Below, in pieces: positions 7,077 through 25,221 of a stretch of DNA of 64,000 nt. Under the pieces are notes generated by a model. That model was not told the DNA's origin. It worked only from the letters and a program-made list of their open reading frames with translations, and ran no database searches. Source of the DNA: Dokdonia sinensis. GTDB lineage: Bacteria > Bacteroidota > Bacteroidia > Flavobacteriales > Flavobacteriaceae. The position numbers and the translations under genes are program-made. The stretch covers positions 124,001-188,000 of the forward strand of contig NZ_REFV01000006.1 of assembly GCF_003688895.1 (NCBI RefSeq), in the 5' to 3' direction. The stretch's first letter is position 1. Each line of letters opens with the position of its first letter.

Positions 7077-7855
7077 AAAAGATACTTTTTACAATGTCCA
7101 TATGTCTTGCATTCTTTGCGTGTAAGAATGACAAAAAAGAAAATAATACGGTACAAACTAATGAAGACGTAACCGTAGAATCACCTACAACAAACTTTGA
7201 AATAATCCCCATCTCCCACGCTACAATGGTTTTAAAGTGGAATGGAAAGACTATTTATGTAGATCCTGTAGGTGGTGCCGAGCTTTTTGCAGATTATGAT
7301 AATCCAGACATCGTGCTAGTTACAGACATACACGGCGACCATCTTAACGTGGAAACACTTGAAGGTTTAAATATGGATAATGCCACCCTCATCGTTCCCA
7401 GTGCAGTAAATGAAAAAACACCGCAGGGAATTTCTTCTCAAATTATAGTACTAAACAATAGTAATACAGCAGATGTGCTCGGCTTTAATATTGAAGCAAT
7501 CCCAATGTATAATCTCAGAGAAGAAGCTCTTAATTTTCACACTAAAGGTCGTGGTAATGGTTATGTAATTGAGAATGACGGGAAACGTATCTATATTTCG
7601 GGCGATACGGAGGATATCCCAGAGATGCGCAATCTTGAGAATATTGATATTGCATTTGTCTGTATGAACCTTCCCTACACAATGACTGAAGAAAGTGCTG
7701 CTGCCGCAGTTCTGGATTTTAAGCCAAAAACGGTCCTGCCCTACCACTATCGTGGCAAAGAAAAGATGAGTGATGTATTCAAATTTAAAAACCTTGTCAA
7801 TGCCGGTAATGAGAATATTGAAGTGCTAATGATGGATTGGTACCCAGAACAGTAA
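7073..7855 (+). CDS. lipoprotein with metallo-beta-lactamase fold
   Basis: A 260-aa protein with a short lipoprotein signal (lipobox ending at Cys17 in FFACK), then an acidic linker and an MBL-fold hydrolase domain of the UlaG/UPF0173 type. The metal motif reads TDIHGDH (84-90), so the first histidine of the usual T-H-x-H-x-D-H is aspartate. Later ligands fit SGDTED and PYHYRG. It is the last gene of the hut operon (4-bp overlap with GNAT). Likely membrane-anchored in the periplasm or envelope. Substrate unknown. Confidence 0.8.
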   Translation: MKKILFTMSICLAFFACKNDKKENNTVQTNEDVTVESPTTNFEIIPISHATMVLKWNGKTIYVDPVGGAELFADYDNPDIVLVTDIHGDHLNVETLEGLNMDNATLIVPSAVNEKTPQGISSQIIVLNNSNTADVLGFNIEAIPMYNLREEALNFHTKGRGNGYVIENDGKRIYISGDTEDIPEMRNLENIDIAFVCMNLPYTMTEESAAAAVLDFKPKTVLPYHYRGKEKMSDVFKFKNLVNAGNENIEVLMMDWYPEQ

Positions 7856-7859
7856 GAAA

Positions 7860-8108
7860 CTATTCTTTTCTAGGTTGCTTAGGAGGCATAGGTCCCCGAA
7901 GATGAATAACGAGACCATTTAAAAAATTACGCAAGAACTGATCACCGCATTCCATATATTTTGCGTGGTCCGGATGACGGAAAATAGCTCCCAGTTCGCT
8001 TTTAGACACTTGAAAATCTACGAGTTCACAAATCTTGATAATATCATCGTCCCTTAATTTATGGGCCACACGGAGTTTTTTAAAGATATCGTTGTTTGTA
8101 AGTGCCAT
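7860..8108 (-). CDS. DUF1456 (YehS-like) single-domain protein
   Basis: Resembles one repeat of the DUF1456 domain, which E. coli YehS has in duplicate: NNDIFKKLRVAHKLRDDD, then LRNFLNGLVIHLRG. The ATG at 8106-8108 (MALTNND) is preferred because the domain begins there; the frame extends seven residues upstream to 8129. The protein has 82 residues and a basic, proline-rich tail. Function of the family is unknown. It converges on the MBL lipoprotein gene with a 4-base gap. Confidence 0.75.
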   Translation of the reverse strand: MALTNNDIFKKLRVAHKLRDDDIIKICELVDFQVSKSELGAIFRHPDHAKYMECGDQFLRNFLNGLVIHLRGPMPPKQPRKE

Positions 8109-8145
8109 AGCTTTTAAAGTTTTATGCAAGTTACGGTTAAAATTG

Positions 8146-8161
8146 CGCTTTCGCGAAAGCG
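8146..8161. repeat. dispersed 16-bp palindrome, intergenic (divergent region)
   Basis: Perfect CGCTTTCGCGAAAGCG between the divergent DUF1456 and rluF genes. Confidence 0.95.
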
Positions 8162-8229
8162 TAATCCTCCACCTTCGTACAATTTACTTAAGAATATAAT
8201 CTAATGCAAAGCAATCACATAATTACCTG

Positions 8230-8237
8230 TAATTTTG
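8230..8237 (+). promoter_or_regulatory. Bacteroidota -7 box for rluF
   Basis: TAATTTTG fits TAnnTTTG and lies ten bases before the chosen ATG (8247), implying an almost leaderless transcript. No clear TTG/TTTG -33 element at the usual distance. Confidence 0.4.
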
Positions 8238-8246
8238 CAACATATT

Positions 8247-8978
8247 ATGGAAGAAAAGAAACAGACCAGAATTAATAAATATTTAAGCGAAATGGGCTAT
8301 TGCTCACGTCGCGCCGCAGATAAGCTTATAGACCAAGGAAGGGTAACCATAAATGGTAAAATACCCGAAATGGGAACGAAAGTCTCTGAAGGTGATGAAG
8401 TACGTGTGAATGGGGAACTTATAGGTGGTAGTGGAGAAAAACCTGTATATATAGCTTTCCACAAACCCGTTGGCATCGTATGTACAACAGATACGAGGGT
8501 TGAGAAGGACAATATTATAGATTACATAAATTACCCCTCACGTATATTTCCTATAGGTAGACTCGATAAACCCAGTGAAGGTCTCATTTTATTGACAAAC
8601 GATGGAGACATTGTAAATAAGATTCTGAGAGCGCGCAATAATCACGAAAAAGAATATGAAGTAACGGTAGACAAGCCCATTACTCCATCATTTATAGCTC
8701 AAATGAGCAATGGGGTTCCTATTCTAGATACGGTTACAAAAAAATGTAAAGTAGAGCAGTTGAGCCGTTTTAAGTTTAAGATTATCCTGACTCAAGGATT
8801 AAACAGACAGATACGCCGTATGTGTGAGTTTCTGGATTACGAGGTCACTCAGCTTAAGCGTAATCGAATTATGAATATCGCTTTAGATGTTCCCGTAGGA
8901 GAATGGCGCGACCTCACTCCTGCTGAACTTAGCGAATTAAATGAGTCTATTCAAGATTCTGATAAAACGCATAATTAA
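8247..8978 (+). CDS. rluF: 23S rRNA pseudouridine synthase RluF-like
   Basis: An RsuA/RluF-type pseudouridine synthase. The N-terminal S4 RNA-binding domain contains [20 protein letters not shown], and the catalytic aspartate sits in [10 protein letters not shown], the RluF form of the motif. [18 protein letters not shown] is the conserved C-terminal block. I choose ATG 8247 (243 aa); an upstream TTG at 8235 is less likely because it overlaps the -7 box. A strong bidirectional terminator follows. It modifies U2604 in E. coli; the exact target here is inferred from homology. Confidence 0.92.
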
Positions 8979-8994
8979 GAACTATAAGTACTTA

Positions 8995-9034
8995 AACAAA
9001 GAAAAACGGGCTATTGAGCCCGTTTTTCTTTGTT
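8995..9034. terminator. strong bidirectional terminator after rluF
   Basis: Perfect 18-bp stem: left arm 8995-9012 (AACAAAGAAAAACGGGCT), 4-nt loop 9013-9016, right arm 9017-9034. The GC core is flanked by A/T runs on both sides, so it can end transcripts from either strand. The small minus-strand frame at 9011-9193 ends inside it. Confidence 0.88.
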
Positions 9035-9193
9035 TTCTTCTTCGGTTTTTGTCCGCTTTAGTGATTCGTCTTTTGCTTCTTTTTGTGCGAGTTTCGATTC
9101 TTCTCTATGAACCCCATTCCCTATCGAAATCGGTTTAGGATCATCGCGAACGATACGCGCATCTATTTCTTTTTTTCTTTCTTTCTCAGTCAT
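9011..9193 (-). CDS. small highly charged hypothetical protein, 60 aa
   Basis: A Lys/Glu-rich 60-residue frame starting MTEKERKKEIDARIVRDDPK and ending ENKEKRAQ. The first half (IDARIVRDDPKPISIGNG) looks protein-like. The last residues are encoded by an arm of the rluF terminator, as would happen if a short gene shares a bidirectional terminator. No domain recognised. It could be spurious. Confidence 0.45.
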   Translation of the reverse strand: MTEKERKKEIDARIVRDDPKPISIGNGVHREESKLAQKEAKDESLKRTKTEEENKEKRAQ

Positions 9194-9252
9194 ACATTAA
9201 AGATAAATATGAAAAGTAACGTCTAGCGTTAAGATGTCGTTAAACCTACACC

Positions 9253-9945
9253 TTATTTAAGCTCAAAACTAACCGCAATGCGTGTAGTGATTGTAAGTTC
9301 ACCGGGAGCAATGGTTTCGCCTCCGCTACCATCCATCTCGGCAGACATCATTCTTGCTTTATACATAGGTGGTTGTGGAGATACACTTCCCTCTTCAGAA
9401 ATCTGAACCGCTTTTCCAATAGATTGTCCCAGGGCTCCAGCGTAAGCTGTTGCCTTTTCCTTCGCATCTTGAATGGCCTTGACACGGGCTTCGGCCCGTA
9501 GTTTCTCCATATTGGACGCTGTAAACTGGACACCATCTATTCTATTGATTCCAGAAGATAATAATCCAGACATAATAGCCTCATATTTCTTAAGGTCTTT
9601 TAATTGTACTGTGAGCGTCTGATTTGCTTTGTAAGTGTATGTTTTGCTATTGTAATCATAGTTTTTATTCAGATTTATATATTCAGTCTGAACGTATTTA
9701 CCTTCTATTCCAGCACCTCTCAAAAATTTAATAACATTATCGATGGACTGGTCGTTTTCTACCTTAACGGACTGTGCATCCTTACCTTCACTTTCTACCC
9801 GTACGCGTATGTCAACACCATCTGGTGCAACTTTTACTTTTCCTTCACCTGTAACATTTACAAGAGGTTCCATTTTAGACTGTTGTGCGGTTAGACTCAT
9901 AGTTACAAATAAGATTATGGCTGTTATGTATTTCATTATAGTCAT
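9253..9945 (-). CDS. SIMPL (DUF541) domain protein, exported
   Basis: A signal peptide (about residues 1-20, ending near LTAQQ) is followed by a SIMPL/DUF541 domain beginning VNVTGEGKVKVAPD, the typical family start. Later segments (TYKANQTLTVQLKDL; EARVKAIQDAKEKATAYAGALG) are also characteristic. The start could equally be the Met at residue 4 (9936). Periplasmic or outer-membrane-associated; molecular role unclear across the family. A methionine-rich patch (PPMYKARMMSAEM) precedes the C-terminal strand. Confidence 0.88.
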   Translation of the reverse strand: MTIMKYITAIILFVTMSLTAQQSKMEPLVNVTGEGKVKVAPDGVDIRVRVESEGKDAQSVKVENDQSIDNVIKFLRGAGIEGKYVQTEYINLNKNYDYNSKTYTYKANQTLTVQLKDLKKYEAIMSGLLSSGINRIDGVQFTASNMEKLRAEARVKAIQDAKEKATAYAGALGQSIGKAVQISEEGSVSPQPPMYKARMMSAEMDGSGGETIAPGELTITTRIAVSFELK

Positions 9946-9998
9946 TTTTAAATTTCAATTACGTATTGCAAATGCAATGCCGATGTGGCTGCTGTAAC

Positions 9999-10649
9999 CT
10001 AAATCTTTCCTAATTTAATGAGAATAAACAGAACAATTATAGGAATAGCAAGTAGAATAATCATAAGCAAGTTTGTTTGAAAAAGTATAGGAACCATTGC
10101 TAGGGTAATGATATAACCTCCTATTGCTCCGCCAAAATGCGCATCGTGACCTATGTTATCTCTTCTCGATTTCATCCCGTAAATAGAGTAAAATAAATAA
10201 CCTATTCCAAAAATGTATGCAGGAATAGGGATCGGTATAAAGAACATATATAAGCTCATTCCTGGCTGTAATAATATAGCAGCATAAAGTATTCCCGAAA
10301 CAGCACCACTAGCTCCTACAGCACTATAGTGATACTCTTCTTTGTGAAAAAAATAGCTTAACAAATTTCCGAGAATTAGACTTCCTAAATAAATAATTAC
10401 AAAATTTAATGGTCCTAACTGATAAATCACCGCATCTGCAAAGAAATACAGCGTCAACATATTAAAAAACAGATGCGGAGTATTTGCGTGTAAGAATCCA
10501 GAAGAAAGCATACGTATTTGCTCTCCCCGGGAGATACCACCTATATTAAACTTATATTTTTCGAAGAAACTAAAGTCATTAAAACCCTTCATAGAAAAGA
10601 GCACGTTGACAAGTATTATTCCAATTGTTACCGGATGTAAATCCCCCAT
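9999..10649 (-). CDS. rhomboid family intramembrane serine protease
   Basis: A 216-aa multi-span membrane protein with the rhomboid catalytic dyad: Ser114 in GASGAVSG and His171 in HDAHFGGAIGG. HANTPHLFFNML (54-65) is the conserved TM2 segment with the oxyanion-region asparagine. It starts at ATG 10649, divergent from the acyltransferase gene. Substrate unknown. Confidence 0.93.
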   Translation of the reverse strand: MGDLHPVTIGIILVNVLFSMKGFNDFSFFEKYKFNIGGISRGEQIRMLSSGFLHANTPHLFFNMLTLYFFADAVIYQLGPLNFVIIYLGSLILGNLLSYFFHKEEYHYSAVGASGAVSGILYAAILLQPGMSLYMFFIPIPIPAYIFGIGYLFYSIYGMKSRRDNIGHDAHFGGAIGGYIITLAMVPILFQTNLLMIILLAIPIIVLFILIKLGKI

Positions 10650-10677
10650 TTGCGCTTATTTTACTTGTAAAGATAGC

Positions 10678-10685
10678 TATATTTG
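10678..10685 (+). promoter_or_regulatory. -7 box for the acyltransferase gene
   Basis: TATATTTG fits TAnnTTTG, 26 bases before ATG 10712. A TTTG at 10649-10652 is 25 bases upstream, longer than the usual spacer, so the -33 assignment is doubtful. Confidence 0.45.
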
Positions 10686-10711
10686 CCCGATTCACTTTGT
10701 AAATAAATGTA

Positions 10712-11635
10712 ATGAAAGCTGTTGTTTTTTGGATATTTTACCCGCTTCTTTGGTTGCTATCTGTGCTTCCATTCCGTTTACTTTATATCATTTCGGATTG
10801 TTGCTATTTTCTTATATATAGAGTGATTGGGTACAGAAAGAAAACTGTGCGTTACAACCTGCGTACCTCTTTTCCAGAAAAATCTGAAGCTGAACTAAAA
10901 TCTATAGAGCGCAAATTTTATAGTCACTTGTGCGACATGTTCTTAGAGATGATTAAGTCTATGAACATAAAAAAGAAAGACCTACTAGAGCGCTATCAAT
11001 TTGCAAACGTCGAGGCTATCACAGACTACGACCAGGCAGATCAAAGTACGTGTCTCATCATGGGGCATTATGCCAGTTATGAGTGGGTTTTTGCATTACA
11101 ACTTTACGTCAAGCATCCAGGTTATGCGATTTATAAAAAAATAAAGCATAAACAATTTGACAACCTCATTAGAGACATACGCGGGCGGTGGAATACGTTT
11201 ATGGTAGATTCTAAAGAAGCTATGAGAACCATCCAGAAACTCGAGAGCGAAGGAAAAACAGGTTGTTATGGTTTTGTGGCAGACCAATCTCCCCGTTTTC
11301 ATAGAGCCAAATACTGGACACAATTCTTAGGTCACGAGCTACCGTTTTTTACCGGTGTTGAGCGTATTGCTCAAGAATTTGACTTACCGGTAAGGTATCT
11401 TGGTGTAGAAAAAGTAAAGCGTGGCTACTACGTGGGCACTTTTCAATCACTTACCACCAATGGGAGTCAGACAGAAGAGGGTGAAATTACTTCCGCTTTC
11501 GCGAAAGCGTTAGAAACCCAAATACGCAACCGTCCAGAGTTTTACCTATGGACGCACAAAAGATTTAAGCTCTTAGGAAAAAAGGAAGAAGTCCTTGCCG
11601 AAATTGAAGCAAGAAGAAATAGAAATCACACTTAG
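10712..11635 (+). CDS. lipid A biosynthesis acyltransferase (LpxL/HtrB-like)
   Basis: A lysophospholipid-acyltransferase-superfamily enzyme (307 aa) with an N-terminal membrane anchor (residues about 1-35). The HX4E catalytic pair is His119/Glu124 in MGHYASYEW. PEFYLWTHKRFK near the C-terminus matches the LpxL family end (usually W.H.RFK). Expected to add a secondary acyl chain to lipid A at the inner membrane. AFAKA at residues 262-266 comes from a palindrome copy. The stop overlaps the convergent class V PLP gene by four bases. Confidence 0.9.
   Translation: MKAVVFWIFYPLLWLLSVLPFRLLYIISDCCYFLIYRVIGYRKKTVRYNLRTSFPEKSEAELKSIERKFYSHLCDMFLEMIKSMNIKKKDLLERYQFANVEAITDYDQADQSTCLIMGHYASYEWVFALQLYVKHPGYAIYKKIKHKQFDNLIRDIRGRWNTFMVDSKEAMRTIQKLESEGKTGCYGFVADQSPRFHRAKYWTQFLGHELPFFTGVERIAQEFDLPVRYLGVEKVKRGYYVGTFQSLTTNGSQTEEGEITSAFAKALETQIRNRPEFYLWTHKRFKLLGKKEEVLAEIEARRNRNHT
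11494..11509. repeat. dispersed 16-bp palindrome, copy in acyltransferase gene
   Basis: Perfect CGCTTTCGCGAAAGCG, translated AFAKA at residues 262-266. Confidence 0.95.
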
Positions 11636-13137
11636 AACTCAAACCAAGAATCTATTGCAATACTTCTACTTTTAGAGGTCTTAGCATCATCCTTATGCAG
11701 ATACTCGTTAGTTTCTGGCATATAATTATAATCATTTTTCCATTTCTTAAAATTTGAAGCGACTTCTTTAATGCCATTACAGATAAGTAATATTTCGTCA
11801 TTGGTCATTGTCGGGTGAATGGACATTCTTATCCAGCCTGGTTTACGGAGGTAGTTTCCAGAACTTATCTCACAGGTTACCTCGTGAGACATTTTTCTGT
11901 CTACATTTAAAAGGTAATGTCCGTAAGTTCCTGCACAGCTGCAGCCTCCCCTAGTTTGAATACCGTAACGATCATTTAATAATTTTACCGCAAGGTTAAA
12001 ATGTAAATCGCTTATGTAAAATGACACTACACCGAGCCGTTCCTTATGTTCTCCTGCTAGAATTGTGAGGTTTTCTATATTTCCTAGCTCTTTCCAAATG
12101 ATATCGATAATCTCGTGTTCTCGTTGCAAAATATTTTTTACCCCCATTTCCTCTTTGAGCTTTATAGCCAAAGCAATTCGAATAGTTTGTAAAAATCCTG
12201 GAGTACCACCATCCTCTCGTTCTTCAATATTATCTACGTATTTGTGCTCGCCCCAAGGATTGGTCCAAGAGACAGTACCACCACCTGGATTATCTGGCAC
12301 TACATTTTTATACAAATCTTTATTAAAAATCAAAACACCGGAAGACCCAGGACCGCCTAGGAATTTATGTGGAGAGAAGAAAATGGCGTCCAAACGCTCT
12401 TCTGGATGCTCTGGATGCATATTAATAGTAACGTAAGGAGCGTTACAGGCAAAGTCTACAAAACATAATCCTCCGTGTGCGTGCATTAGCCTTGCGACAT
12501 CGTGATAGGGAGTTTCGATTCCCGTAACATTACTGCAGGCCGTAATGGAGGCAATCTTAAAAGGATGATCTTCATATTTAAGTAATTCTTTCTCAAAATT
12601 ATCTAGACAAAAGCGACCATCACTTTTTGCAGGAACTATAATAACTGTTGCCATCGTCTCTAGCCAAGTTGTTTGATTGCTATGGTGCTCCATATGGGAC
12701 ACAAAAACGATAGGCTTAACTTCTTCTGGAATAGCAGTAAATTTTCTAATATTCTCAGGAACTTTGAGGCCAAGAATACGCTGAAATTTATTGACCATTC
12801 CCGTCATCCCGTTTCCGCCTACAATGAGCACATCATTCTCATTTGCATTAACATGCTGTTTAATGATATTTTTAGCCTTATGATAAGACATTGTCATAGC
12901 GGTACCCGATACGGTTGTTTCCGTATGTGTATTTGCAACATACGGTCCAAAATCTCGTAACATTTTCTCCTCGATAGGTCCGTATAACCTTCCCGAGGCC
13001 GTCCAATCTGCATATATAAGCGGTTGGCTGCCATAGGGCGATGTGAAGTGCTGATTATAACCAACAATGTTTTTACGAAAGCGAGAAAAGTATTTCTCTA
13101 GTTTATCACTAGACTTTATAGGTTTTAAGATTTTCAT
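11632..13137 (-). CDS. class V aminotransferase-fold PLP enzyme (cysteine desulfurase-like)
   Basis: A 501-aa PLP-dependent protein of aminotransferase class V. The PLP lysine is in SPHKFLGGPGSSG and the PLP aspartate is in FVDFACNAP. RGGCSCAG places a cysteine pair where SufS-type desulfurases carry the catalytic loop. It is longer than SufS (about 400 aa) and there are no suf genes nearby, so it is probably a separate desulfurase/selenocysteine-lyase-like subfamily. A matching -7 box lies upstream (13157-13164). It overlaps the acyltransferase stop by 4 bases. Confidence 0.85.
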   Translation of the reverse strand: MKILKPIKSSDKLEKYFSRFRKNIVGYNQHFTSPYGSQPLIYADWTASGRLYGPIEEKMLRDFGPYVANTHTETTVSGTAMTMSYHKAKNIIKQHVNANENDVLIVGGNGMTGMVNKFQRILGLKVPENIRKFTAIPEEVKPIVFVSHMEHHSNQTTWLETMATVIIVPAKSDGRFCLDNFEKELLKYEDHPFKIASITACSNVTGIETPYHDVARLMHAHGGLCFVDFACNAPYVTINMHPEHPEERLDAIFFSPHKFLGGPGSSGVLIFNKDLYKNVVPDNPGGGTVSWTNPWGEHKYVDNIEEREDGGTPGFLQTIRIALAIKLKEEMGVKNILQREHEIIDIIWKELGNIENLTILAGEHKERLGVVSFYISDLHFNLAVKLLNDRYGIQTRGGCSCAGTYGHYLLNVDRKMSHEVTCEISSGNYLRKPGWIRMSIHPTMTNDEILLICNGIKEVASNFKKWKNDYNYMPETNEYLHKDDAKTSKSRSIAIDSWFEF

Positions 13138-15368: not shown

Positions 15369-15383
15369 ACCATTATGATCACT

Positions 15384-17078
15384 ATGAGATATTTATGTAC
15401 ACTTCTCTTTGCTCTACTCATACTAGGGTGTAAAACCGAAAATCCTAAAAAAGAAACAAAACGTGGACTCATAACCCAGAAAGCGATGGTCGTTTCTGCA
15501 CGTGAAGAGGCCTCAAAAATAGGCTCTGCCATCATGGAGCAGGGTGGTAACGCCTTTGATGCGATGGTTGCGACAGAAATGGCCCTCGCAGTCACCTATC
15601 CTTTTGCGGGTAATTTAGGCGGTGGTGGCTTTATGGTGTATAGAACAACATCGGGCGAAGTAGGAGCACTAGATTATCGTGAAAAAGCTCCAGGCGCGGC
15701 TCGCAAGGAAATGTATCTAGATGAAGAGGGCAACGTAATTCCCAAGCTAAGTACAGAAGGTGCAATGGCGGTGGGTGTTCCAGGGACAATCTCGGGAATA
15801 TTTGCTGCTCACGAGAAGTTTGGGTCCTTGCCTATTGAAAAATTATTGCAACCTGTTGTTGATCTGGCACGTAACGGTTATGTGGTTACCGAGAATCAAG
15901 CGAGGCGCTTTGAACACTATGCTCCTGTATTTACAGAGGTGAACGGTGACAGTACGATGCTTTATAGTACCGCTTTCGCGAAAGCGGAAACCATTAAAAA
16001 CACCGCCCTAGCCGAAACCTTAGAGCGCATCATCGCAAATGGAAAGAGCGAATTTTACGGTGGAGAAACTGGACAGAAAATGGTGGAATATATTCAGGCC
16101 AAAGGTGGTATAATGACTGTTGAAGATCTACAAGCTTACGAGGCGCAATGGAGGGATCCCGTTATCTTTAACTACGATAATCTCAGAATAATATCAATGT
16201 CCCCGCCATCATCTGGAGGCGTGGCAATGGCACAAATTTTTGAATCCATCGAGCCTTATGATGTATCTCAATACGGACACAATACAGAAAAGACCATCCA
16301 ACTCATCACCGAAGCAGAGCGCAGAGCCTACGCAGATCGTAGTTTCTATCTGGGCGATCCTGATTTTGTAAACGTTCCTGTAGCCGAGCTGATTTCGGAG
16401 AAATATAATAAGAACAGAATGGATGATTTCTCTTGGGATAAGGCGACGCCTTCCAGCGATCTGGAACACGGAAAATTACCGGGCTATGAAAGCATGGAAA
16501 CAACTCACTACTCCATAGTCGATTCGTTTGGGAATGCCATTGCGGTAACTACAACGCTTAACGGCGCTTATGGCTCTAAATTATATGTAGACGAGCTTGG
16601 CTTCTTCCTAAATAATGAAATGGACGATTTTTCGGCAAAGCCGGGTGTGCCTAATATGTTTGGACTTATAGGTGCAGAGGCAAATGCTATCGCGCCTGGA
16701 AAAAGAATGCTATCCAGTATGACACCTACTCTGGTTGAGAAAGATGGTAAATTCTGGATGACCGTAGGAACACCAGGAGGTTCTACCATAATCACCTCTG
16801 TGATGCAGACGATACTTAACGTGCACGAGTTTGAAATGAGTATGCAAGAGGCCGTGAACGCTCCTCGCTTTCACCATCAATGGTTACCAGATGTGGTAAT
16901 GTTTGAACCTGATAGTTTTGACCAAGAGATGCTTAAAAATCTTTCGGCAAAAGGGTATAACATAAATCAAGAGGACTCTCCCATTATCGGAAAGGTAGAT
17001 GGAATTTTGGTTCTTCCAGATGGGTCTCTAGAGGGTGGTGCAGACCGTCGTGGTGATGATACAGCGGTGGGGTTTTAG
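15384..17078 (+). CDS. ggt: gamma-glutamyltransferase, lipoprotein
   Basis: Cleaves gamma-glutamyl bonds (glutathione-type substrates) outside the cytoplasm. It starts MRYLCTLLF with a lipobox ending LILGC, so it is probably a lipoprotein; an ATG three codons upstream (15375) is possible. The Ntn-hydrolase nucleophile is the Thr starting TTHYSIVD, where the precursor self-cleaves. SSMTPT and GTPGGSTIIT are conserved substrate-loop blocks. AFAKA near residue 197 is encoded by the palindrome at 15971-15986. Probably co-transcribed with acpH. Confidence 0.93.
   Translation: MRYLCTLLFALLILGCKTENPKKETKRGLITQKAMVVSAREEASKIGSAIMEQGGNAFDAMVATEMALAVTYPFAGNLGGGGFMVYRTTSGEVGALDYREKAPGAARKEMYLDEEGNVIPKLSTEGAMAVGVPGTISGIFAAHEKFGSLPIEKLLQPVVDLARNGYVVTENQARRFEHYAPVFTEVNGDSTMLYSTAFAKAETIKNTALAETLERIIANGKSEFYGGETGQKMVEYIQAKGGIMTVEDLQAYEAQWRDPVIFNYDNLRIISMSPPSSGGVAMAQIFESIEPYDVSQYGHNTEKTIQLITEAERRAYADRSFYLGDPDFVNVPVAELISEKYNKNRMDDFSWDKATPSSDLEHGKLPGYESMETTHYSIVDSFGNAIAVTTTLNGAYGSKLYVDELGFFLNNEMDDFSAKPGVPNMFGLIGAEANAIAPGKRMLSSMTPTLVEKDGKFWMTVGTPGGSTIITSVMQTILNVHEFEMSMQEAVNAPRFHHQWLPDVVMFEPDSFDQEMLKNLSAKGYNINQEDSPIIGKVDGILVLPDGSLEGGADRRGDDTAVGF
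15971..15986. repeat. dispersed 16-bp palindrome, copy in ggt
   Basis: Perfect CGCTTTCGCGAAAGCG, translated AFAKA in the large subunit of GGT. Confidence 0.95.
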
Positions 17079-17238: not shown

Positions 17239-18135
17239 ATGAAATATATAACGCTCATTATAGGCGTGTTAATTTGTTCTTTTGCAACTGCTCAGAGTCT
17301 TCCTGTGGAAGTGGATAGTGTTGAGCCTCTTGAGACTTATGAAAGTCCAATTTTAAAAGAGCTGTTATCTCAAGAAATAAATAAGAATCCGCAGTGGAAA
17401 AGCCTCGTTAGGTCAAACAGAATGTCTGTTGGGATTGTAGATTTGAGCAATTTAGACAATATAGAATACGCTGGTATAAATGACGAATTTATGATGTATG
17501 CAGCAAGTCTTCCCAAAATCGCCATACTACTAGCTGCGATGGATGCCATTGATAAGGGTGAACTTAAAGATTCTAAAGAGATTCGAAAAGACATGCGCCT
17601 TATGATTAGTAAGTCTAATAATGCGGCTTCTACTAGAATGATAGATCGTGTAGGTTATGATAAAATCGAGTCAGTATTACGTAGTGATCAGCTTAAATTA
17701 TATGATGAGGAAGTAGGTGGTGGCTTATGGGTAGGCAAGCGTTATGCGGCTGGAGGCAAAAGACATCCTGAGCCTATGAAGGGGCTAAGCCACGCTGCAA
17801 CTGCGAGACAAGTGTGTAGTTTTTATTATCAACTCGTTTTAGGAAATCTGGTAAGTCCTAAGCGCTCTAAGCAGATGCTGGACATAATGAAAGATCCTGC
17901 ATTACACCACAAATTTGTAAATACACTTGATAAAATTGCGCCAAAAGCAGATTTGTACAGAAAATCAGGTTCTTGGAAAAACTATCACTCTGATTCCGTA
18001 CTCGTTTGGGGACCCGAGCGCAGATATATTTTAGTTGCGTTAATAGATGATGCAAATGGCGAGCAAATTGTAAGAGATTTAGTTATCCCTTTAGAAAAAG
18101 TAATGAAAAAATCACGTTCTTTAGCGTATAACTAA
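17239..18135 (+). CDS. exported serine hydrolase, class A beta-lactamase-like
   Basis: A 298-aa protein with a signal peptide (residues 1-19, ending ATAQ). The three active-site elements of the penicillin-interacting fold are present: S90-L-P-K93, S126-N-N128 and K242-S-G244. I do not find the ExxLN omega-loop glutamate of true class A beta-lactamases, so a peptidase/esterase or transpeptidase-like role is possible. It lies 15 bases upstream of the carrier gene, suggesting one transcript. A second protein with the same elements is at 21041-22303. Confidence 0.82.
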   Translation: MKYITLIIGVLICSFATAQSLPVEVDSVEPLETYESPILKELLSQEINKNPQWKSLVRSNRMSVGIVDLSNLDNIEYAGINDEFMMYAASLPKIAILLAAMDAIDKGELKDSKEIRKDMRLMISKSNNAASTRMIDRVGYDKIESVLRSDQLKLYDEEVGGGLWVGKRYAAGGKRHPEPMKGLSHAATARQVCSFYYQLVLGNLVSPKRSKQMLDIMKDPALHHKFVNTLDKIAPKADLYRKSGSWKNYHSDSVLVWGPERRYILVALIDDANGEQIVRDLVIPLEKVMKKSRSLAYN

Positions 18136-18150
18136 TTTGACAATATTTTA

Positions 18151-20979
18151 ATGCTAAAGAGGCTTTACAAGAAAGCATTTGACATAAGAGATGGTGAAAT
18201 CACTATCTCTTTTTTTATGCAATTGTACATATTCCTTGTAATCACGGTGTTGCTCATTGTGAAGCCCTCGGTAAACGCATTATTTCTGTCTGCCCTAGGT
18301 GCAGATAGTTTACCGTATGGATACCTGCTCGTAGCTATAGTCGCCATATTGAGTTCTTACTTTTATAATAAGGCAATTAGAAAATATTCTTTCCGTAGGG
18401 TTGCTACTATTTCCCTATTAAGTTTTGCATTACTCTTTATCTTTTTGAGTGTTGCCCTGCATTTAAGATTTCTAGAAGTGTGGGTGCTCTATTTTTATTA
18501 CGTCCTAATTTCACTATTTGCTGTTGTGATCACTTCGCAATTCTGGATACTCGCAAATATGGTTTACAATGCTCGGGAGGCTAAGCGATTATTTGGATTT
18601 ATAGGAGCTGGGGCAATAGCTGGAGGAATTTTTGGTGGATACCTTACTACGCTAGTCTCAGCAAACTTTGGGAATAAGGTTTCTATATTCATTGCAGCAA
18701 TACTTACTTTGGGTTGCATTCCTATATTGTTTCGCATTTGGAAGATGCGATTAAAAGAGCTTTCTGTCTACGCAAGAAAGAAGAAAATACACGAGGAATC
18801 AACACCAGACACACACGCTTTTCAGCTAATTCTTAGGTCAAAACATTTACTTTATACAGCTCTTATAATAGGTGTGGGAGTTCTTGTTGCTAAACTTGTA
18901 GATTTCCAATTTTCAGATTTTGCACATAGGGCAATTCCAGATTCTGACGAGTTAGCATCTTTCTTGGGTTTTTGGTTTTCTACGTTTAACGTAATTGCTC
19001 TTTTAATACAGCTTTTTGCAACTAACAGAGTACTGGGCTATCTAGGTGTTACCTCTACAATGCTAATTTTGCCCTTGGGAATAGCGCTGGGCTGTCTTCT
19101 ATTTATTACTGTTCCAGAACTCTGGGTATTAATAATCATTAAAGGTCTCGACGGTAGTTTTAAACAGTCTATTAATAAAGCCGCAGCAGAACTTTCTATT
19201 CTTCCCATCCCCTACGCTATTAAGAACCAAGCAAAGTCTTTTATAGACATCGTTGTAGATAGTGTTGCAACGGGTCTTGCTGGCTTCTTGCTTATTTTTG
19301 GGATTAGAGGAATGGAGTTGGGAACACTTTTCGTGTCAGTTCTTATTTTACTCTTTTTATTTGTCTGGCTTATTCTCATTTATAAATTGAGAGATGCCTA
19401 CTTCTCATCGTTTAGGAAAAATCTTGAAAGCCTTGTTGAAGATAAGATAAAGAACAAATCTCGAAGAGAAACAACGATTACTTCGGCGAGAAGAGTTCTA
19501 TCACAAGGTAATGAATCCGAAATTTTAATTTTACTTGACCGCATTGGAACTACAAAATTAAAACCATTACAAAATCAAATCATTGAGTTATTAGATCACC
19601 CTTCCACGGCTGTTAAACTTGCTGCCATTGATCAACTATATTCTTATAGGGAAGGAACAGCAGTAAGAAAAGTGCAGTCATTTCTTAAACTCAAAAACGA
19701 CGATCTTACTATTGGCGCACTCCAATACCTCTTGCATCATACAAAAATAGATGACCGCAATATCTTTAGAGACTATCTTGATCACAAGGATCCTTCTGTT
19801 GCTAGAGCAGCTCTACTTTGTCTTGCTAAAGATGCTCAGACCAATAAACGTTTGGGCATCGAGTTTGACCTTTTAAAACGAATCAAGCAAAGAATAGATA
19901 TCCTCTCTACTCCCGAAGGGCTTGAAAATGTAGAAGAAACCGAGGAACTTCTCTTAACAATCGCCTATGCCAGAGTTAAGGATTATTATTATTTTATCTC
20001 AATACACTTCGGAAATAAAAATGATGCTGTCGTAAAGAGTGCTATTAAAGCTGCTGGCATTACTGCAGATCCAGTTTTTATTCATAAACTATTACCATTC
20101 CTTGAATTTAAAAAATTTAGAAAAAGAGCTATAAAAAGCTTAACTGCTTATGGTCCAGAAATAACTACAGCAATCTTAAAACTAGAAAATGATGAGGTAT
20201 TTAACACAGAGGTAAGACGATATCTGCCTAAGGTTGTTGCGTCTTTTAACACCCAAGATTCCGTAAGAGTACTGTATAAGTTTCTGTTAAGCAAAGACGT
20301 TATCACACGACGCCACGCTTCAAAATCATTGCAAAAATTACAGCGTACAAATGCTAATATAAATATAGACAGACGCCGTATTACTAAATTGATTTTAAGT
20401 GAAAGTCAGTTTTACCAAGATACTATCGTTGCTTTAGCCACCTTCAGTCAATTGCTGAATAATACTGAATTGAGTAAAGAAATAACAGACCAAGAAACAG
20501 AAATACTTGTTGCGCGTGAGACTATTGTTCAAGTATTACGAGACCAACTTAATCAGAGTTTAGATAGTGTATTTACGCTACTGAGTTTGCGGTATAATCA
20601 GGAAGACATAAAGGCGGCTTACTTTGGTGTTAAAAGCAACGATAAAGAAGCAAAGATTAACGCCATTGAATTTCTGGATAATCTACTTCACATTAAATTA
20701 AAGAGTAACATTCTTCCCCTTTTAGAATATACGGTTATCGAAGATAATGATATTCAGGTTGCGAGCTTTGATTTAGAAATAGAGAACGAAAGTAAGATTA
20801 TAAAATCTTTACTAGCAAATCGTGGCAAACGTATGAAACTAGCCTTACTTAACCTTATAATTCATTTACAAGATAGCCAATACCTTCAGCAGATTAGTAG
20901 GCTGCAATATCACGAAGACAAGCAGATAAGAAAATTAGCAAAGCGCGCTGTGACAGCGTTAAATGCTGAAAACAAATAA
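18151..20979 (+). CDS. ATP/ADP-translocase (NTT)-like carrier fused to a HEAT-repeat tail
   Basis: A 942-aa protein in two parts. Residues about 1-410 form roughly 12 membrane helices resembling the nucleotide-carrier/MFS-related NTT family: RDGEITISFF start, LPYGYL, and FWILANMVYNAREAKRLFGFIGAG followed by GGIFGGYL. Residues about 430-940 are soluble alpha-helical repeats of HEAT type (LLDHPSTAVKLAAIDQL, YLDHKDPSVARAALLCL). True NTT carriers exchange ATP/ADP in plastids and obligate intracellular bacteria. In free-living bacteria the substrate of such long versions is unknown. Pairs with the serine hydrolase upstream. Confidence 0.8.
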   Translation: MLKRLYKKAFDIRDGEITISFFMQLYIFLVITVLLIVKPSVNALFLSALGADSLPYGYLLVAIVAILSSYFYNKAIRKYSFRRVATISLLSFALLFIFLSVALHLRFLEVWVLYFYYVLISLFAVVITSQFWILANMVYNAREAKRLFGFIGAGAIAGGIFGGYLTTLVSANFGNKVSIFIAAILTLGCIPILFRIWKMRLKELSVYARKKKIHEESTPDTHAFQLILRSKHLLYTALIIGVGVLVAKLVDFQFSDFAHRAIPDSDELASFLGFWFSTFNVIALLIQLFATNRVLGYLGVTSTMLILPLGIALGCLLFITVPELWVLIIIKGLDGSFKQSINKAAAELSILPIPYAIKNQAKSFIDIVVDSVATGLAGFLLIFGIRGMELGTLFVSVLILLFLFVWLILIYKLRDAYFSSFRKNLESLVEDKIKNKSRRETTITSARRVLSQGNESEILILLDRIGTTKLKPLQNQIIELLDHPSTAVKLAAIDQLYSYREGTAVRKVQSFLKLKNDDLTIGALQYLLHHTKIDDRNIFRDYLDHKDPSVARAALLCLAKDAQTNKRLGIEFDLLKRIKQRIDILSTPEGLENVEETEELLLTIAYARVKDYYYFISIHFGNKNDAVVKSAIKAAGITADPVFIHKLLPFLEFKKFRKRAIKSLTAYGPEITTAILKLENDEVFNTEVRRYLPKVVASFNTQDSVRVLYKFLLSKDVITRRHASKSLQKLQRTNANINIDRRRITKLILSESQFYQDTIVALATFSQLLNNTELSKEITDQETEILVARETIVQVLRDQLNQSLDSVFTLLSLRYNQEDIKAAYFGVKSNDKEAKINAIEFLDNLLHIKLKSNILPLLEYTVIEDNDIQVASFDLEIENESKIIKSLLANRGKRMKLALLNLIIHLQDSQYLQQISRLQYHEDKQIRKLAKRAVTALNAENK

Positions 20980-20984
20980 ATAAA

Positions 20985-21017
20985 AAAGCGAGACTATAAA
21001 GATTACAATCTCGCTTT
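20985..21017. terminator. bidirectional terminator between convergent operons
   Basis: Stem AAAGCGAGA (20985-20993) and TCTCGCTTT (21009-21017) with a 15-nt loop, A-run on the left and T-rich on the right. It lies between the carrier gene stop (20979) and the minus-strand hydrolase stop (21041). Confidence 0.75.
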
Positions 21018-21040
21018 CAATTTTATGAGCTATGTTACTC

Positions 21041-22303
21041 CTATGATTCTTTAGGATTTATAAGCTTATCGATGCTACTTGCTAAATACATGTGAGCTCC
21101 AGCACTATTTTTATTAAGAACATTAGTCATTAAGCAACAGATGTACTTCTTACCATTAGGTTGCTCTACAATGATTACGGAGTTCATATAGTTGTAAACA
21201 TTACCTGCGTACGCGCTACAATCAGGATTTTTTACTCTGTCACATTTATAAAAACTACCAGATTTAAAATACACTGCAGCATCATCTAGCTGTGGTGCGC
21301 GAGCATAACGTATTCTGCGATCGGTCATATACAGTAGGCGCTTCATCTCGAGGCTACTCTGCTCATCAATTACATTTCCTTGTTCGAGGCTTACTAAGAA
21401 TTTCATAAGTCCTATTGGTGTGCCTGTGCTCCCACCTTTATCACCTACGTACTTATTTGCAGCACCGGTAAAGAAACTACCTAGACGCCATTCATCACTA
21501 GAAATTCCAAGTTTGCGCAGAGGGTCATTCACGATACGATTTGCACGATCTGTTAATGAGTCACGTGGAGTATCTTTAAAATAAGCCTCAGCTTCCTCTT
21601 CTGTAATATCTGCGTATTTTTTGCCAAAATGAGAAATCAACATTGCTTCTCTCCACACCACACTCGCTGCACCATTATTACTTACAGAAACCATATGGTC
21701 GGCCCATTCTATTACAGAGAATTCATCACTTGCTACTACCTGACGCTTTGTTAGTTTATCCTTTTCTATGTCATAAATTGGGATTGTATGATGGTCACCC
21801 GTCCCCCAGTACCTTGCTTTTACGCGCTTATTACAAATTAAACCCATTCGTAAGTCAAAATCTGCCGAGTCCGGATATACCTTGTGAAGCTCCGTAAATA
21901 AGGCCGCTAGTACAGCAATTTTTCCTACACTTCCAGGCTGGTAGCCTACATTCTCACGATGGTCTGCATATTTTAAGCTATCTGGATTAGACATATCTAG
22001 AATAGCCAGTGAATATGCTCCGCCTGGAGTAATACGTTGCACGGCACGAGAAAATTCAGGATCTTCTATAAGTAATGCAGAAGCACTATCCCGCCTTCGC
22101 GAAAGCAAATTCAGCTTAATATCTGCAAGCTTTTTATAAGCTCCGTCAGGAATACGTTTGTTATCTATACTATCCATCTCCATTTTCTGAAGGCGGTAGA
22201 GGCGTTTGATTCCCGTGCGATCATATCCATCTATAGGATATAAAGACATTAGAAACAGTGCCGAAATTAAAATCGCGGGTATTATAATTAGTTTAGTTTT
22301 CAT
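21041..22303 (-). CDS. exported serine hydrolase, class A beta-lactamase-like (second copy)
   Basis: A 420-aa protein with an N-terminal signal or anchor (residues 4-22). Active-site elements: S125-V-G-K128 in QPGSVGKIAVL, S208-N-N210, and K347-S-G349 in FKSGSFYKC. It is about 120 residues longer than 17239-18135, with an extra region before the serine motif. The ATG shares one base with the stop of the dikinase-like gene (TAATG), so the two are translationally coupled. LSRRR (67-71) is encoded by a partly decayed palindrome. Substrate unknown. Confidence 0.8.
   Translation of the reverse strand: MKTKLIIIPAILISALFLMSLYPIDGYDRTGIKRLYRLQKMEMDSIDNKRIPDGAYKKLADIKLNLLSRRRDSASALLIEDPEFSRAVQRITPGGAYSLAILDMSNPDSLKYADHRENVGYQPGSVGKIAVLAALFTELHKVYPDSADFDLRMGLICNKRVKARYWGTGDHHTIPIYDIEKDKLTKRQVVASDEFSVIEWADHMVSVSNNGAASVVWREAMLISHFGKKYADITEEEAEAYFKDTPRDSLTDRANRIVNDPLRKLGISSDEWRLGSFFTGAANKYVGDKGGSTGTPIGLMKFLVSLEQGNVIDEQSSLEMKRLLYMTDRRIRYARAPQLDDAAVYFKSGSFYKCDRVKNPDCSAYAGNVYNYMNSVIIVEQPNGKKYICCLMTNVLNKNSAGAHMYLASSIDKLINPKES
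22091..22106. repeat. partly decayed palindrome copy in serine hydrolase gene
   Basis: CCGCCTTCGCGAAAGC: centre and one arm intact, the other arm changed. On the minus strand the region reads LSRRR. Confidence 0.6.
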
Positions 22304-25221
22304 TATTTAATGGGTGCATCTAGAGTTATTAAAAAGTCATTATCTATCTCTGGAGAAATAGATTCTAAGTATTCTGAGGTTTTTGCATTCTTATTTTCGA
22401 CAAATGGACGAATCTGGAACAACCATAATTTGTCATTCTCAAATCCCAGCTCAACATCATAAGCGCCTTTATAATCTGAATTTGTCATCTCAGGAAGTCG
22501 CTTCCGTATTGCGGAGGCAATCGCTCTAATGTCCGAAATATTCTGCTCATTTAAAATTTCATTTTCAAACGTGGCGGTTTTCTTGGCCGTTCCACCTGTT
22601 GATGGTAATCTTATATAGTCACTCTGCCTCGCAGGCGACAACAGTCTATTCCCTGTGGTTGTTACAAGTCTTGTCTCGGCGGCCTGACCGTCTACAGCTC
22701 CTCCTGCCCCACGACTAAAAGCGATAGTCAAATCATCATCTGTCCCCAAGTTGATTCCTTTTGTTATCATCACCCCACTATACTCCACATCAACCGATGG
22801 GATAATGAGAATAGAAGGAAATACATTTTCTGGATTGCTTAAGTATTGCTGTCTCCACTTAAAACTACGCTCTGTGTATGGAGAAGCCCAAACGTCTTTA
22901 ATTCCCTTGAGAATACGTTCTTCCTCCAGAATATTAAATAGTGTAAGGTTTAGTCCAGCACCAGTAAACTCTTCTAGATCCTCCATATTTGTATCACTAC
23001 GTAGGAACACAGGGACTTTTCCCATAGGAGCTTTGAGCACGCTTTGAAAATCTGCCTTTAGGTTTTGGATAAAAGATGGTTTTAATGTCATCTGTGCAAT
23101 GGCGCCTCTTAAACGTTGCAACTCTCCTAGCTGGAAGTCCTCAACTTCTTTAGAAGAAGCACCGTCTTTTTTGAGTTTTTCCGCTTTCGCGAAAGCGTCA
23201 TTAAGAAAACCCCAATAAGAGCCCTCATAATTAGGCATCTTTTGGTCCATATGATCTTTAAAAATCCCAAAAGGGATTACAAGTCCTTCAACTACTTGAT
23301 CTGGAAACATTTTCTTGAGTTGGCCCAAATTGGCTGCCTTAGGACCCGTCAATTTTCCAGAGGCGCTGGCATCTATGTCGCGCATATTAATCACGCTTGT
23401 CTGGTCGAGTTTTATCTGTTCTACGGGAACAGTAACTTGGTTTGTAGAGCGTTCTTTCTTTGAAAACAAAGCGAGTTCTTGCTCATCCATATCCTTCTCT
23501 GCTTTGATAATTACGTTGCCTCTGTTTGAGACGGCGTAAAAAACTTTCTTACCACTATATTCCATCAAGTCTTCAAGATTTCCTTGCGATAAGGCCGCAT
23601 TAGGAATCCCTAAATTTCGCGCCAGCAACTGTACGTGGGACACAAGATTCCCTTCAGAAACCGTCATAATTCCAGCTACAGGTTTTAAGTCTGATGGTGG
23701 TCGTTCAAAAACATAAATCTTCTCTGTATCGACCTCAATGTTTTCTGGAGTTCCCTGCACTACAACGAGCTCGCCATAAGCATATCCAGGATTCAATCCC
23801 CTTACAGAAGCTTGGCCGTTTATATCCATAACTTTATTTTCAAGTCCTGAGTACTTAGTTATAAAGGCTCCTAACTTACTCACACTTTCTCCTAAGTCCA
23901 GCGCCACAGACGACCGAACACGATCATCTATAAAGCCGTGTGCTTTAGGCTCGAACTGCGCGTAGCGTTCTACAACATCTTGATAGTTTGCTTTTACCTG
24001 AGCGGCGCTCCACTCCACTATTCCTCTTGAGGTTGCTAGAAAATCATTGAGTTGGGCTACGCTTTTATCCTCGTGGTAGCTTTCGGCGACGAGATAGGGC
24101 TCTATGGCATACCACTCTCCTAGCTCAACAAGTCCTGTACCAGCGGTGGCGTAACTGAGGGTTTCTATTTTTTGCAATAAATCGCCTAGTGTTTCTGGTT
24201 GCCACTCCTGCATTTTTAATAATAAGATATCTTCGAGCTCATTAGTAAGGTCTAGCATTTGAAGTTTATCACTTGCTCTGGATAATGAAGTAATATCCTG
24301 ACGGATGTAACAGAGCACGTCTGCAATTTCGGTGACGAGTTTTTTAGCATCTTGATCTTTTGACCCATTTTCTAGAAAAGTTTTAACTCTGCTTACTAAA
24401 ACATCATCAGACTTGATTTTATTAAGCTGGGCATTGAGTGCCGTGAAGTCAATAGGCGCGTAAAACTCTTTCATCGTTTTTTCCAGCGCATCAAATTCTT
24501 TGGCAATTGCGGGAGAAAATTTATCCTTATTCCTTGCGCGAAATTCCTGCACCATCTGAATATCACTTACATCCGGTTTTCCGTGGATTTTTATTCTAGC
24601 TTCCATAAATTTTGGAAACTCTTCGGCAATCGTTTTAGACTGACTGCGCATTGCTTGTGCTAGGTTGCTATCGCCGTCGTGCGGGATATCTCTCAGGGAT
24701 TGTCTAAGTAGGTAATAATTTTCGCGTAAGCGGGCATCATCTCTTAATAACCATTGATAAAACTCAATACCCCAAGCTTCCTCATCTTCTGATTGAACGG
24801 CACCACGGTAGTATTGTGATTTACGTTGTACCCAGCCATCATCTACACTTGCTAGGTATCTTGCAAGTTGGTATTGTTTTAAACGGCTGTGGTTGTTAGA
24901 GCTGTCCCAGAAATCTTCTTTATCCGTATTTGTAAGAATATCTGCAAAAAATAAGTGATACTTATTTCCCAAGTCTTTTAGGTCGTCGCGGTAACTGGCG
25001 TGCTGTACGCCACCGCCTATTTTATCTGGACAAGGGTCTTTAGAATCACGGCGGGTTCCATCTTTACAGAACCACTCAATTTGTTTGTAAGGCCCTCTAT
25101 AATTTTCCTTATAAAGTTCAATTTGCTTTTTTATAGAAGCGACGGGAAGGTCTTGCGCATTTACAGTAGACACAAAGAAACTGGCGACCATAATGGTCAT
25201 CCCTAGTATAGTATATTTCAT
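22303..25221 (-). CDS. exported PEP-synthase/glucan-dikinase-like protein
   Basis: A large protein (972 aa from the preferred Met at 25221, which begins signal peptide MKYTILGMTIM...VNAQ; the frame extends 18 codons upstream). In upstream numbering: residues about 45-480 unrecognised helical; a swivelling phosphohistidine-like domain about 490-590 with H547 in LVSHVQLLARNLGIP; a PPDK/PpsA-type ATP-grasp about 640-965 with KAANLG, FLRSDTNMEDLEEF (Arg759), VWASPYTERSF, SGVMIT and LFQIRPF. The His domain precedes the ATP domain, unlike PpsA but like plant glucan water dikinase, whose LSHVSVRARN motif it resembles. An exported ATP-dependent dikinase is unusual. Coupled to the serine hydrolase. 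Confidence 0.82.
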   Translation of the reverse strand: MKYTILGMTIMVASFFVSTVNAQDLPVASIKKQIELYKENYRGPYKQIEWFCKDGTRRDSKDPCPDKIGGGVQHASYRDDLKDLGNKYHLFFADILTNTDKEDFWDSSNNHSRLKQYQLARYLASVDDGWVQRKSQYYRGAVQSEDEEAWGIEFYQWLLRDDARLRENYYLLRQSLRDIPHDGDSNLAQAMRSQSKTIAEEFPKFMEARIKIHGKPDVSDIQMVQEFRARNKDKFSPAIAKEFDALEKTMKEFYAPIDFTALNAQLNKIKSDDVLVSRVKTFLENGSKDQDAKKLVTEIADVLCYIRQDITSLSRASDKLQMLDLTNELEDILLLKMQEWQPETLGDLLQKIETLSYATAGTGLVELGEWYAIEPYLVAESYHEDKSVAQLNDFLATSRGIVEWSAAQVKANYQDVVERYAQFEPKAHGFIDDRVRSSVALDLGESVSKLGAFITKYSGLENKVMDINGQASVRGLNPGYAYGELVVVQGTPENIEVDTEKIYVFERPPSDLKPVAGIMTVSEGNLVSHVQLLARNLGIPNAALSQGNLEDLMEYSGKKVFYAVSNRGNVIIKAEKDMDEQELALFSKKERSTNQVTVPVEQIKLDQTSVINMRDIDASASGKLTGPKAANLGQLKKMFPDQVVEGLVIPFGIFKDHMDQKMPNYEGSYWGFLNDAFAKAEKLKKDGASSKEVEDFQLGELQRLRGAIAQMTLKPSFIQNLKADFQSVLKAPMGKVPVFLRSDTNMEDLEEFTGAGLNLTLFNILEEERILKGIKDVWASPYTERSFKWRQQYLSNPENVFPSILIIPSVDVEYSGVMITKGINLGTDDDLTIAFSRGAGGAVDGQAAETRLVTTTGNRLLSPARQSDYIRLPSTGGTAKKTATFENEILNEQNISDIRAIASAIRKRLPEMTNSDYKGAYDVELGFENDKLWLFQIRPFVENKNAKTSEYLESISPEIDNDFLITLDAPIK
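23182..23197. repeat. dispersed 16-bp palindrome, copy in dikinase-like gene
   Basis: Perfect CGCTTTCGCGAAAGCG, translated AFAKA at residues 694-698 (upstream numbering), in a charged segment of the ATP-grasp domain. Confidence 0.95.

Follow-up and report, generated by a model that had tools for sequence, protein, structure and literature searches.

The 64,000-nucleotide stretch of Dokdonia sinensis DNA analysed here (the window; host genome, 3.65 Mb) contains four genes arranged as two converging pairs, coding for two serine hydrolases, a carrier and an exported dikinase-like protein, which almost certainly form one functional system. On the plus strand, the gene for hydrolase A (17239-18135; 298 residues) is followed after a gap of 15 bases by the carrier open reading frame (ORF) (18151-20979; 942 residues). 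On the minus strand, the gene for the dikinase (22303-25221; 972 residues) is followed by that for hydrolase B (21041-22303; 420 residues), and the stop codon of the former and the start codon of the latter have one base in common (TAATG). Between the converging pairs lies a bidirectional terminator hairpin with a 16-pair stem (20984-21018; no strand). This convergent four-gene arrangement, proposed in a preliminary description made from the sequence alone, was borne out at base level by the ORF coordinates, the 15-base gap, the TAATG coupling and the hairpin.

The preliminary description had let its proposal stand or fall with the distribution of the four families across Bacteroidota, scattered families counting against it. 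The search with profiles of the four families covered 121 genomes of Flavobacteriaceae, a single one from each genus, and 346 genomes of Bacteroidota, and the families proved to be kept or lost together. In the Flavobacteriaceae, the dikinase, hydrolase A, hydrolase B and the fusion of a nucleotide transporter (NTT) domain to HEAT repeats (NTT-HEAT) were each found in 22 genomes, and these were the identical 22; no member of the set was present in the remaining 99, of which two encode a bare NTT devoid of HEAT repeats. Across Bacteroidota, the dikinase and both hydrolases occurred in the identical 11 of 346 genomes, all of which also contained an NTT, NTTs as such being commoner (37/346). Fisher tests for each family pair gave p values of about 1e-24 for the 121 genomes and about 6e-21 for the 346. 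The association did not depend on physical linkage: in one genome (G327) the four genes lie at four places on two contigs (C1:547683, C1:397893, C1:309498 and C2:106568), in another (G141) the carrier gene is 2 Mb away from the other three, and in Leeuwenhoekiella the block is split into a dikinase-hydrolase B pair and a hydrolase A-carrier pair. Within Dokdonia, seven genomes without a full dikinase (six without any match, and G002, an incomplete genome with a fragment of 50 residues at the edge of a contig) also lacked the carrier. Since co-occurrence includes these unlinked copies, the four genes were taken as one system. The two bare NTT genes of Flavobacteriaceae that lack the system are located at G049:C1:99243 and G110:C4:202906. 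Separately, a distant Bacteroidota genome carries a bare NTT gene (453 residues) adjacent to an NTT-HEAT gene (903 residues) at G347:C7:47924-52243 (locus L139), with the other three genes elsewhere; this pair might possibly constitute a heteromeric carrier.

When 84,980 species genomes were scanned with patterns taken from Dokdonia sequences (the profile searches covered Bacteroidota), 80 homologous loci were obtained, nearly all from Flavobacteriaceae plus one from Saprospiraceae; many of the named matches were marine flavobacteria. The complete convergent block is kept in about 70 of these 80 loci at 36-78% identity, a recurrence that far exceeds chance, and in every genome searched in which the block is broken the missing genes were located elsewhere. 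Dikinase-B spacing is usually near zero, A and the carrier gene are 10-30 bases apart, and the converging pairs either overlap slightly or are separated by a few bases. When the neighbouring ORFs of the 80 loci were clustered, the four families appeared in 80, 79, 70 and 68 loci and the next best family only in 19, so that the unit consists of exactly four genes; no recurring fifth gene emerged from this clustering or from the neighbourhoods of the dispersed copies. Dokdonia relatives that possess the dikinase keep the order and orientation of all four genes, even where the neighbouring ggt and acpD are missing. A gamma-glutamyltransferase gene (15375-17078) just upstream of hydrolase A, found there in many Dokdonia, is outside the conserved unit. 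Tenacibaculum adriaticum (locus L144) appeared to be an exception, with a main locus made up of dikinase, hydrolase B and carrier genes and no hydrolase A near the dikinase; hydrolase A is present in a second locus, an extra dikinase-less A-carrier-B copy at 7206-12234 that represents a partial module duplication. The carrier is the fastest-evolving member of the set: 30 of 92 carriers (loci L017-L142) are less than 42% identical to that of the window although their blocks are similar in other respects, the dikinase and the hydrolases being mostly 50-60% identical.

The dikinase consists, after its signal peptide, of an N-terminal helical domain (residues 23-470; 23812-25155, minus strand), a phosphohistidine swivel (residues 471-600; 23422-23811) and a C-terminal ATP-grasp domain (residues 621-951; 22369-23361). 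Pfam assigned residues 624-951 to PPDK_N (1e-23); the swivel matched PEP-utilizers only weakly (0.086) and aligns to the swivel of phosphoenolpyruvate (PEP) synthase. Residues K628, R741, T760, E924, Q936 and R938 of the ATP-grasp domain are invariant in 93 homologues, as are S528, H529 and R535 of the swivel segment SEGNLVSH529VQLLARNLGIP. The presumed catalytic His529 (codon 23635-23637; swivel motif SEGNLVSHVQLLARNLGIPNA) lies in SEGNLVSHVQLLARNLGIP, within a Gly-containing loop followed by Ala-Arg-x-x-Gly-Ile-Pro, as in swivelling phosphohistidine domains. These dikinase residues correspond to His825, Lys22, Arg117, Thr136 and Glu297 of rifampin phosphotransferase (RPH) (PMC4844700), the correspondence to Lys22 resting on the position in the Pfam alignment. 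Judged from these residues, the dikinase is likely to transfer phosphate from ATP to a phospho-His529 intermediate. A tblastn search with the dikinase against a plasmid collection gave no match.

Two known identities were considered for this protein and rejected. The preliminary description had likened it to PEP synthase, and this did not hold: Pfam found no PEP/pyruvate TIM barrel, only 21 residues follow the ATP-grasp domain, and scores against the NCBIfam PEP synthase equivalogs were at most 81.6 bits vs cut-offs of at least 598. The missing barrel also sets the protein apart from the related PPDK. A glucan, water dikinase was discarded as well, as no carbohydrate-binding (CBM45-type) domain appeared in a Pfam scan of 96 homologues. 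The N-terminal domain (about 450 residues) is the presumed acceptor domain. Its AlphaFold model is almost wholly helical, with a predicted local distance difference test score (pLDDT) of 86.9, and it contains the conserved clusters YRGxxQSEDEEAW, PHxGD, RIKIHG and FIDDRxRSS, which presumably line the acceptor site. Comparison of the model with PDB structures, those of RPH included, gave no fold match with E <= 0.001, so the acceptor cannot be inferred from the fold, and Pfam searches with the N-terminal 450 residues of the 96 homologues returned only scattered chance hits.

Substrates of signal peptidase I (SPI) in Bacteroidota typically start with Gln after cleavage, which is known as the Q-rule (PMC5837995). 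Using a hydrophobic segment followed by small-x-small and a Gln after the cleavage point as the pattern, and 643 other ORFs of the same loci as background, the Q-rule was fitted by 86 of 93 dikinases, 80 of 89 hydrolases A and none of 91 hydrolases B (background, 95/643). In the window, the signal peptide of the dikinase (25156-25221, minus strand) would be cleaved between STVNA and QDLP, and that of hydrolase A (17239-17292, plus strand) between SFATA and QSLP. The dikinase is thus very probably exported via Sec/SPI, in line with the signal peptide read in the preliminary description, and the same signal statistics show hydrolase A as a predicted exported protein. Hydrolase B carries an N-terminal hydrophobic anchor (22241-22303, minus strand) without a Q-rule cleavage site, and a hydrophobic N-terminus is present in 83 of 84 homologues. 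The combination points to an uncleaved protein that is probably anchored in the membrane and faces the periplasm. Directly after the membrane segment, hydrolase B has the motif YPIDGYxxTGIKRL (22199-22240, minus strand), in which Y-P-I-D-G is invariant and for which no known family accounts. Two conserved cysteine pairs, C52 and C64 in all dikinases and C354/C362 in 97% of the hydrolase B homologues, fit a predicted location in an oxidising compartment.

Both hydrolases were assigned to the Pfam family Beta-lactamase2 (1e-21 for A and 2.2e-8 for B) and are mutually related (profile E = 1e-6). The S-x-x-K, S-N-N and K-S-G elements reported in the preliminary description were found in both. In hydrolase A they comprise S90/K93 (Ser90 codon 17506-17508), S126-N128 and K242-G244, with S90, K93, S126, N128, K242 and G244 invariant in 89 homologues; in hydrolase B they comprise S125/K128 (Ser125 codon 21929-21931), S208-N210 and K347-G349, with S125, K128, S208, N210, K347 and G349 invariant in 91. 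The nearest solved relative of hydrolase A by sequence is PBP-A, and the AlphaFold model of hydrolase B (pLDDT 94.5) also had PBP-A as its best fold match (E=1.5e-10); the PBP-A-like fold was thus examined on a predicted structure for B only, A being placed by sequence. PBP-A is a cyanobacterial DD-carboxy/endopeptidase close to class A beta-lactamases (PMC11189452). Identification of the two proteins as true class A beta-lactamases was rejected, since they scored 20.8 and 12.9 bits against NCBIfam bla_class_A, far under its cut-off of 200. In class A beta-lactamases, the deacylating Glu166 lies in the omega loop. The segment GGGLWVGKRY..PEP of hydrolase A, assigned to the omega loop by sequence and not by structural alignment, contains no invariant Glu, position E178 being Glu or Asp in 49 and 40 sequences, respectively. 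The preliminary view of two beta-lactamase-like hydrolases was therefore right as to the family and the catalytic elements, but both resemble the DD-peptidase PBP-A more closely than they do true beta-lactamases. This resemblance is the main pointer, and only a pointer, to a peptidoglycan-type substrate.

The carrier begins with a polytopic NTT/TLC-family domain of about 430 residues (18151-19440, plus strand), which matched Pfam TLC, the ATP/ADP transporter family (4.8e-13; 49.2 bits vs a gathering threshold of 21), and the solved chains 9j3j (AtNTT1) and 9j3n (ADP,ATP carrier protein 1). It is followed in the same protein by a HEAT-repeat tail (19468-20979) with a match to Pfam HEAT_2 (1.6e-10) and a profile match to alphaRep/HEAT structures, as expected of an NTT-HEAT fusion. 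It is the only TLC protein encoded in the host genome. Residues K38, D251, K338, E347 and K362 are invariant in 92 carriers.

Taken together, these data suggest an extracytoplasmic, ATP-driven phosphotransfer system whose target would be an envelope compound, perhaps one related to peptidoglycan, a reading to which we assign a probability of about 0.55. The inner-membrane NTT-HEAT carrier would pass nucleotide from the cytoplasm to the periplasm, most simply ATP outwards against AMP or ADP back. The exported dikinase would then bind ATP in its C-terminal ATP-grasp domain and phosphorylate His529 of the swivel with release of AMP and Pi, after which the swivel would swing to the N-terminal helical domain, where the acceptor would be phosphorylated or phosphoryl-activated. 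The periplasmic hydrolase A and the anchored hydrolase B, as PBP-A-like serine acyl-enzymes, might prepare the acceptor or process the product, the reaction being cleavage or transfer of an amide or ester of the D-alanyl type; we infer that they act on the same compound as the dikinase. Since the hydrolases are PBP-A-like, the acceptor is most likely to be sought in a peptidoglycan peptide or another envelope component, and its assignment to peptidoglycan in particular is tentative, with the odds on the lower side; the cell-wall or surface polymer suggested in the preliminary description is likewise conjectural. That the carrier supplies the ATP appears somewhat more probable than the scheme as a whole.

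Several observations weigh against this scheme. AtNTT1 needs the charges K155, E245, E385 and K527 (PMC10654386, PMC3306366). These numbers were placed on the PDB chain by an offset at which E245 and E385 coincide with Glu and K527 with Lys, and in the phmmer alignment E245 corresponds to Ser, Ala or Gly at position 121 of the carrier and K527 to Thr374 (88/92), while the K155 region corresponds to Tyr/Gly, a position not firmly aligned. Only E385 is kept as a charge, being Asp251 in all 92 carriers, so that, of the four charges that mark ATP/ADP exchangers, three appear to be missing. With these charges replaced, canonical ATP/ADP exchange is not implied by the carrier sequence, and of the ATP/ADP-translocase class named in the preliminary description the TLC/NTT family membership stands, while E245, K527 and probably K155 have no counterparts in this alignment. 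Moreover, a dikinase returns AMP, and classical NTTs are not known to exchange AMP; because the dikinase would release AMP, an ATP/AMP exchanger would be its natural partner. The only NTT found in the divergent genome G331 is short and has no HEAT repeats, making it the weakest case of co-occurrence. Finally, the acceptor domain belongs to no known fold or family and so provides no pointer to peptidoglycan.

These points were weighed against other explanations of the locus. That the genes are chance neighbours, an island of unrelated genes, or linked by common ancestry and not by function is very improbable: synteny alone can indeed be inherited within close relatives, but co-occurrence holds with one genome per genus, phylum-wide and also where the genes are dispersed, by which this explanation is already contradicted. 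A nucleotide import or salvage role is unlikely, though better founded. In this case the carrier would bring extracellular or prey-derived nucleotides inward, external ATP would come from lysed neighbours, and outside the cell the exported dikinase and hydrolases would act on envelope material that is phosphorylated or linked to nucleotides, releasing or converting it. The characterised NTTs of intracellular bacteria do import nucleotides (PMC5381601), and the presence of marine flavobacteria among many of the named matches would suit such a role, but an exported ATP consumer with all its ATP-grasp residues needs a reliable source of ATP, hydrolases of the beta-lactamase fold are not nucleotidases, and the carrier, the sole TLC protein of the genome, is lost together with the dikinase.

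Equally unlikely is that the carrier transports none of ATP, ADP and AMP but a different compound, such as a precursor that is phosphorylated or D-alanylated, with periplasmic ATP arriving by another route. The loss of the hallmark ATP/ADP residues and the transport of NAD and other nucleotides within the NTT family (PMC5381601) speak for it; it leaves unexplained why an exported ATP user and a protein of a nucleotide-carrier family are inseparable even when their genes are unlinked. An antibiotic inactivation island, in which a periplasmic relative of RPH and two beta-lactamase-like enzymes would be fed ATP by the carrier, has a still smaller chance of being correct. The dikinase residues match those of RPH and both hydrolases belong to Beta-lactamase2, but resistance genes are usually mobile and singly gained, whereas these four are all-or-none at phylum depth and the dikinase has no plasmid match; in addition, the hydrolases reach 13-21 bits against the class A cut-off of 200, B folds best as PBP-A, and the N-terminal domain of the dikinase has no fold match to RPH or any other structure. 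None of the four proteins matched the PADLOC models of anti-phage defence.

No description of the four-gene set was found in the open-access literature, paywalled work not being covered; the system appears to be new as a whole, each part belonging to a known superfamily. NTT-HEAT fusions of free-living bacteria have already been described, as uncharacterised proteins (Major et al. 2017, PMC5381601). The preliminary proposal of an undescribed system is accordingly upheld for the four-gene partnership but not for the fusion itself, and the novelty lies in its obligate association with an exported dikinase. An NTT-HEAT protein, for which the 2017 study had not settled a role (PMC5381601), thereby gains a functional context. 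The inseparability of dikinase and carrier provides a strong lead towards extracytoplasmic, ATP-driven chemistry in some free-living bacteria. The periplasm is generally considered to contain no ATP, and other driving forces are assumed for the reactions that take place in it. A new class of bacterial energy export, in which a dedicated NTT-HEAT carrier sends ATP to the periplasm as the power source of the exported dikinase, which together with the two PBP-A-like acyl-enzymes would build or remodel an envelope polymer, has in our estimation slightly less than an even chance of being correct; if true, it would mean that covalent chemistry of the envelope draws on ATP in the periplasm. The question is open to direct testing in culturable Dokdonia, Polaribacter or Leeuwenhoekiella.

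Among known systems, plant alpha-glucan, water dikinases (GWD/PWD) have the same order as the dikinase, with an acceptor domain, a His domain and a C-terminal ATP domain; unlike them, it is an exported bacterial protein with no carbohydrate-binding domain by Pfam. With PEP synthase and PPDK it shares the homology of the ATP-grasp and swivel domains and the catalytic Lys, Arg, Glu, Gln and Arg, differing in the missing C-terminal barrel, the C-terminal position of the ATP-grasp domain and its export. RPH and the two-component phenolic dikinases HpeHI, CreHI and PpsAB combine, as it does, an ATP-grasp domain, a phosphohistidine swivel and an acceptor domain that is not a TIM barrel, with the same catalytic residues. 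HpeH (acceptor and swivel) followed by HpeI (ATP-grasp) reproduces the domain order of the dikinase (PMC12167813), whereas RPH, with an N-terminal ATP-grasp domain and a C-terminal swivel, has the reverse order, placing the dikinase outside the RPH group. Further differences from RPH and the phenolic dikinases are the Sec/SPI signal peptide, the acceptor domain without a fold match to RPH, and the obligate carrier and hydrolase partners. The two hydrolases resemble PBP-A in their SxxK, SxN and KSG elements, although hydrolase B is only about 12% identical to it and has large insertions. The carrier has the same architecture as the NTT-HEAT fusions already on record (PMC5381601), the difference being that for one of them the set of partners has now been identified.

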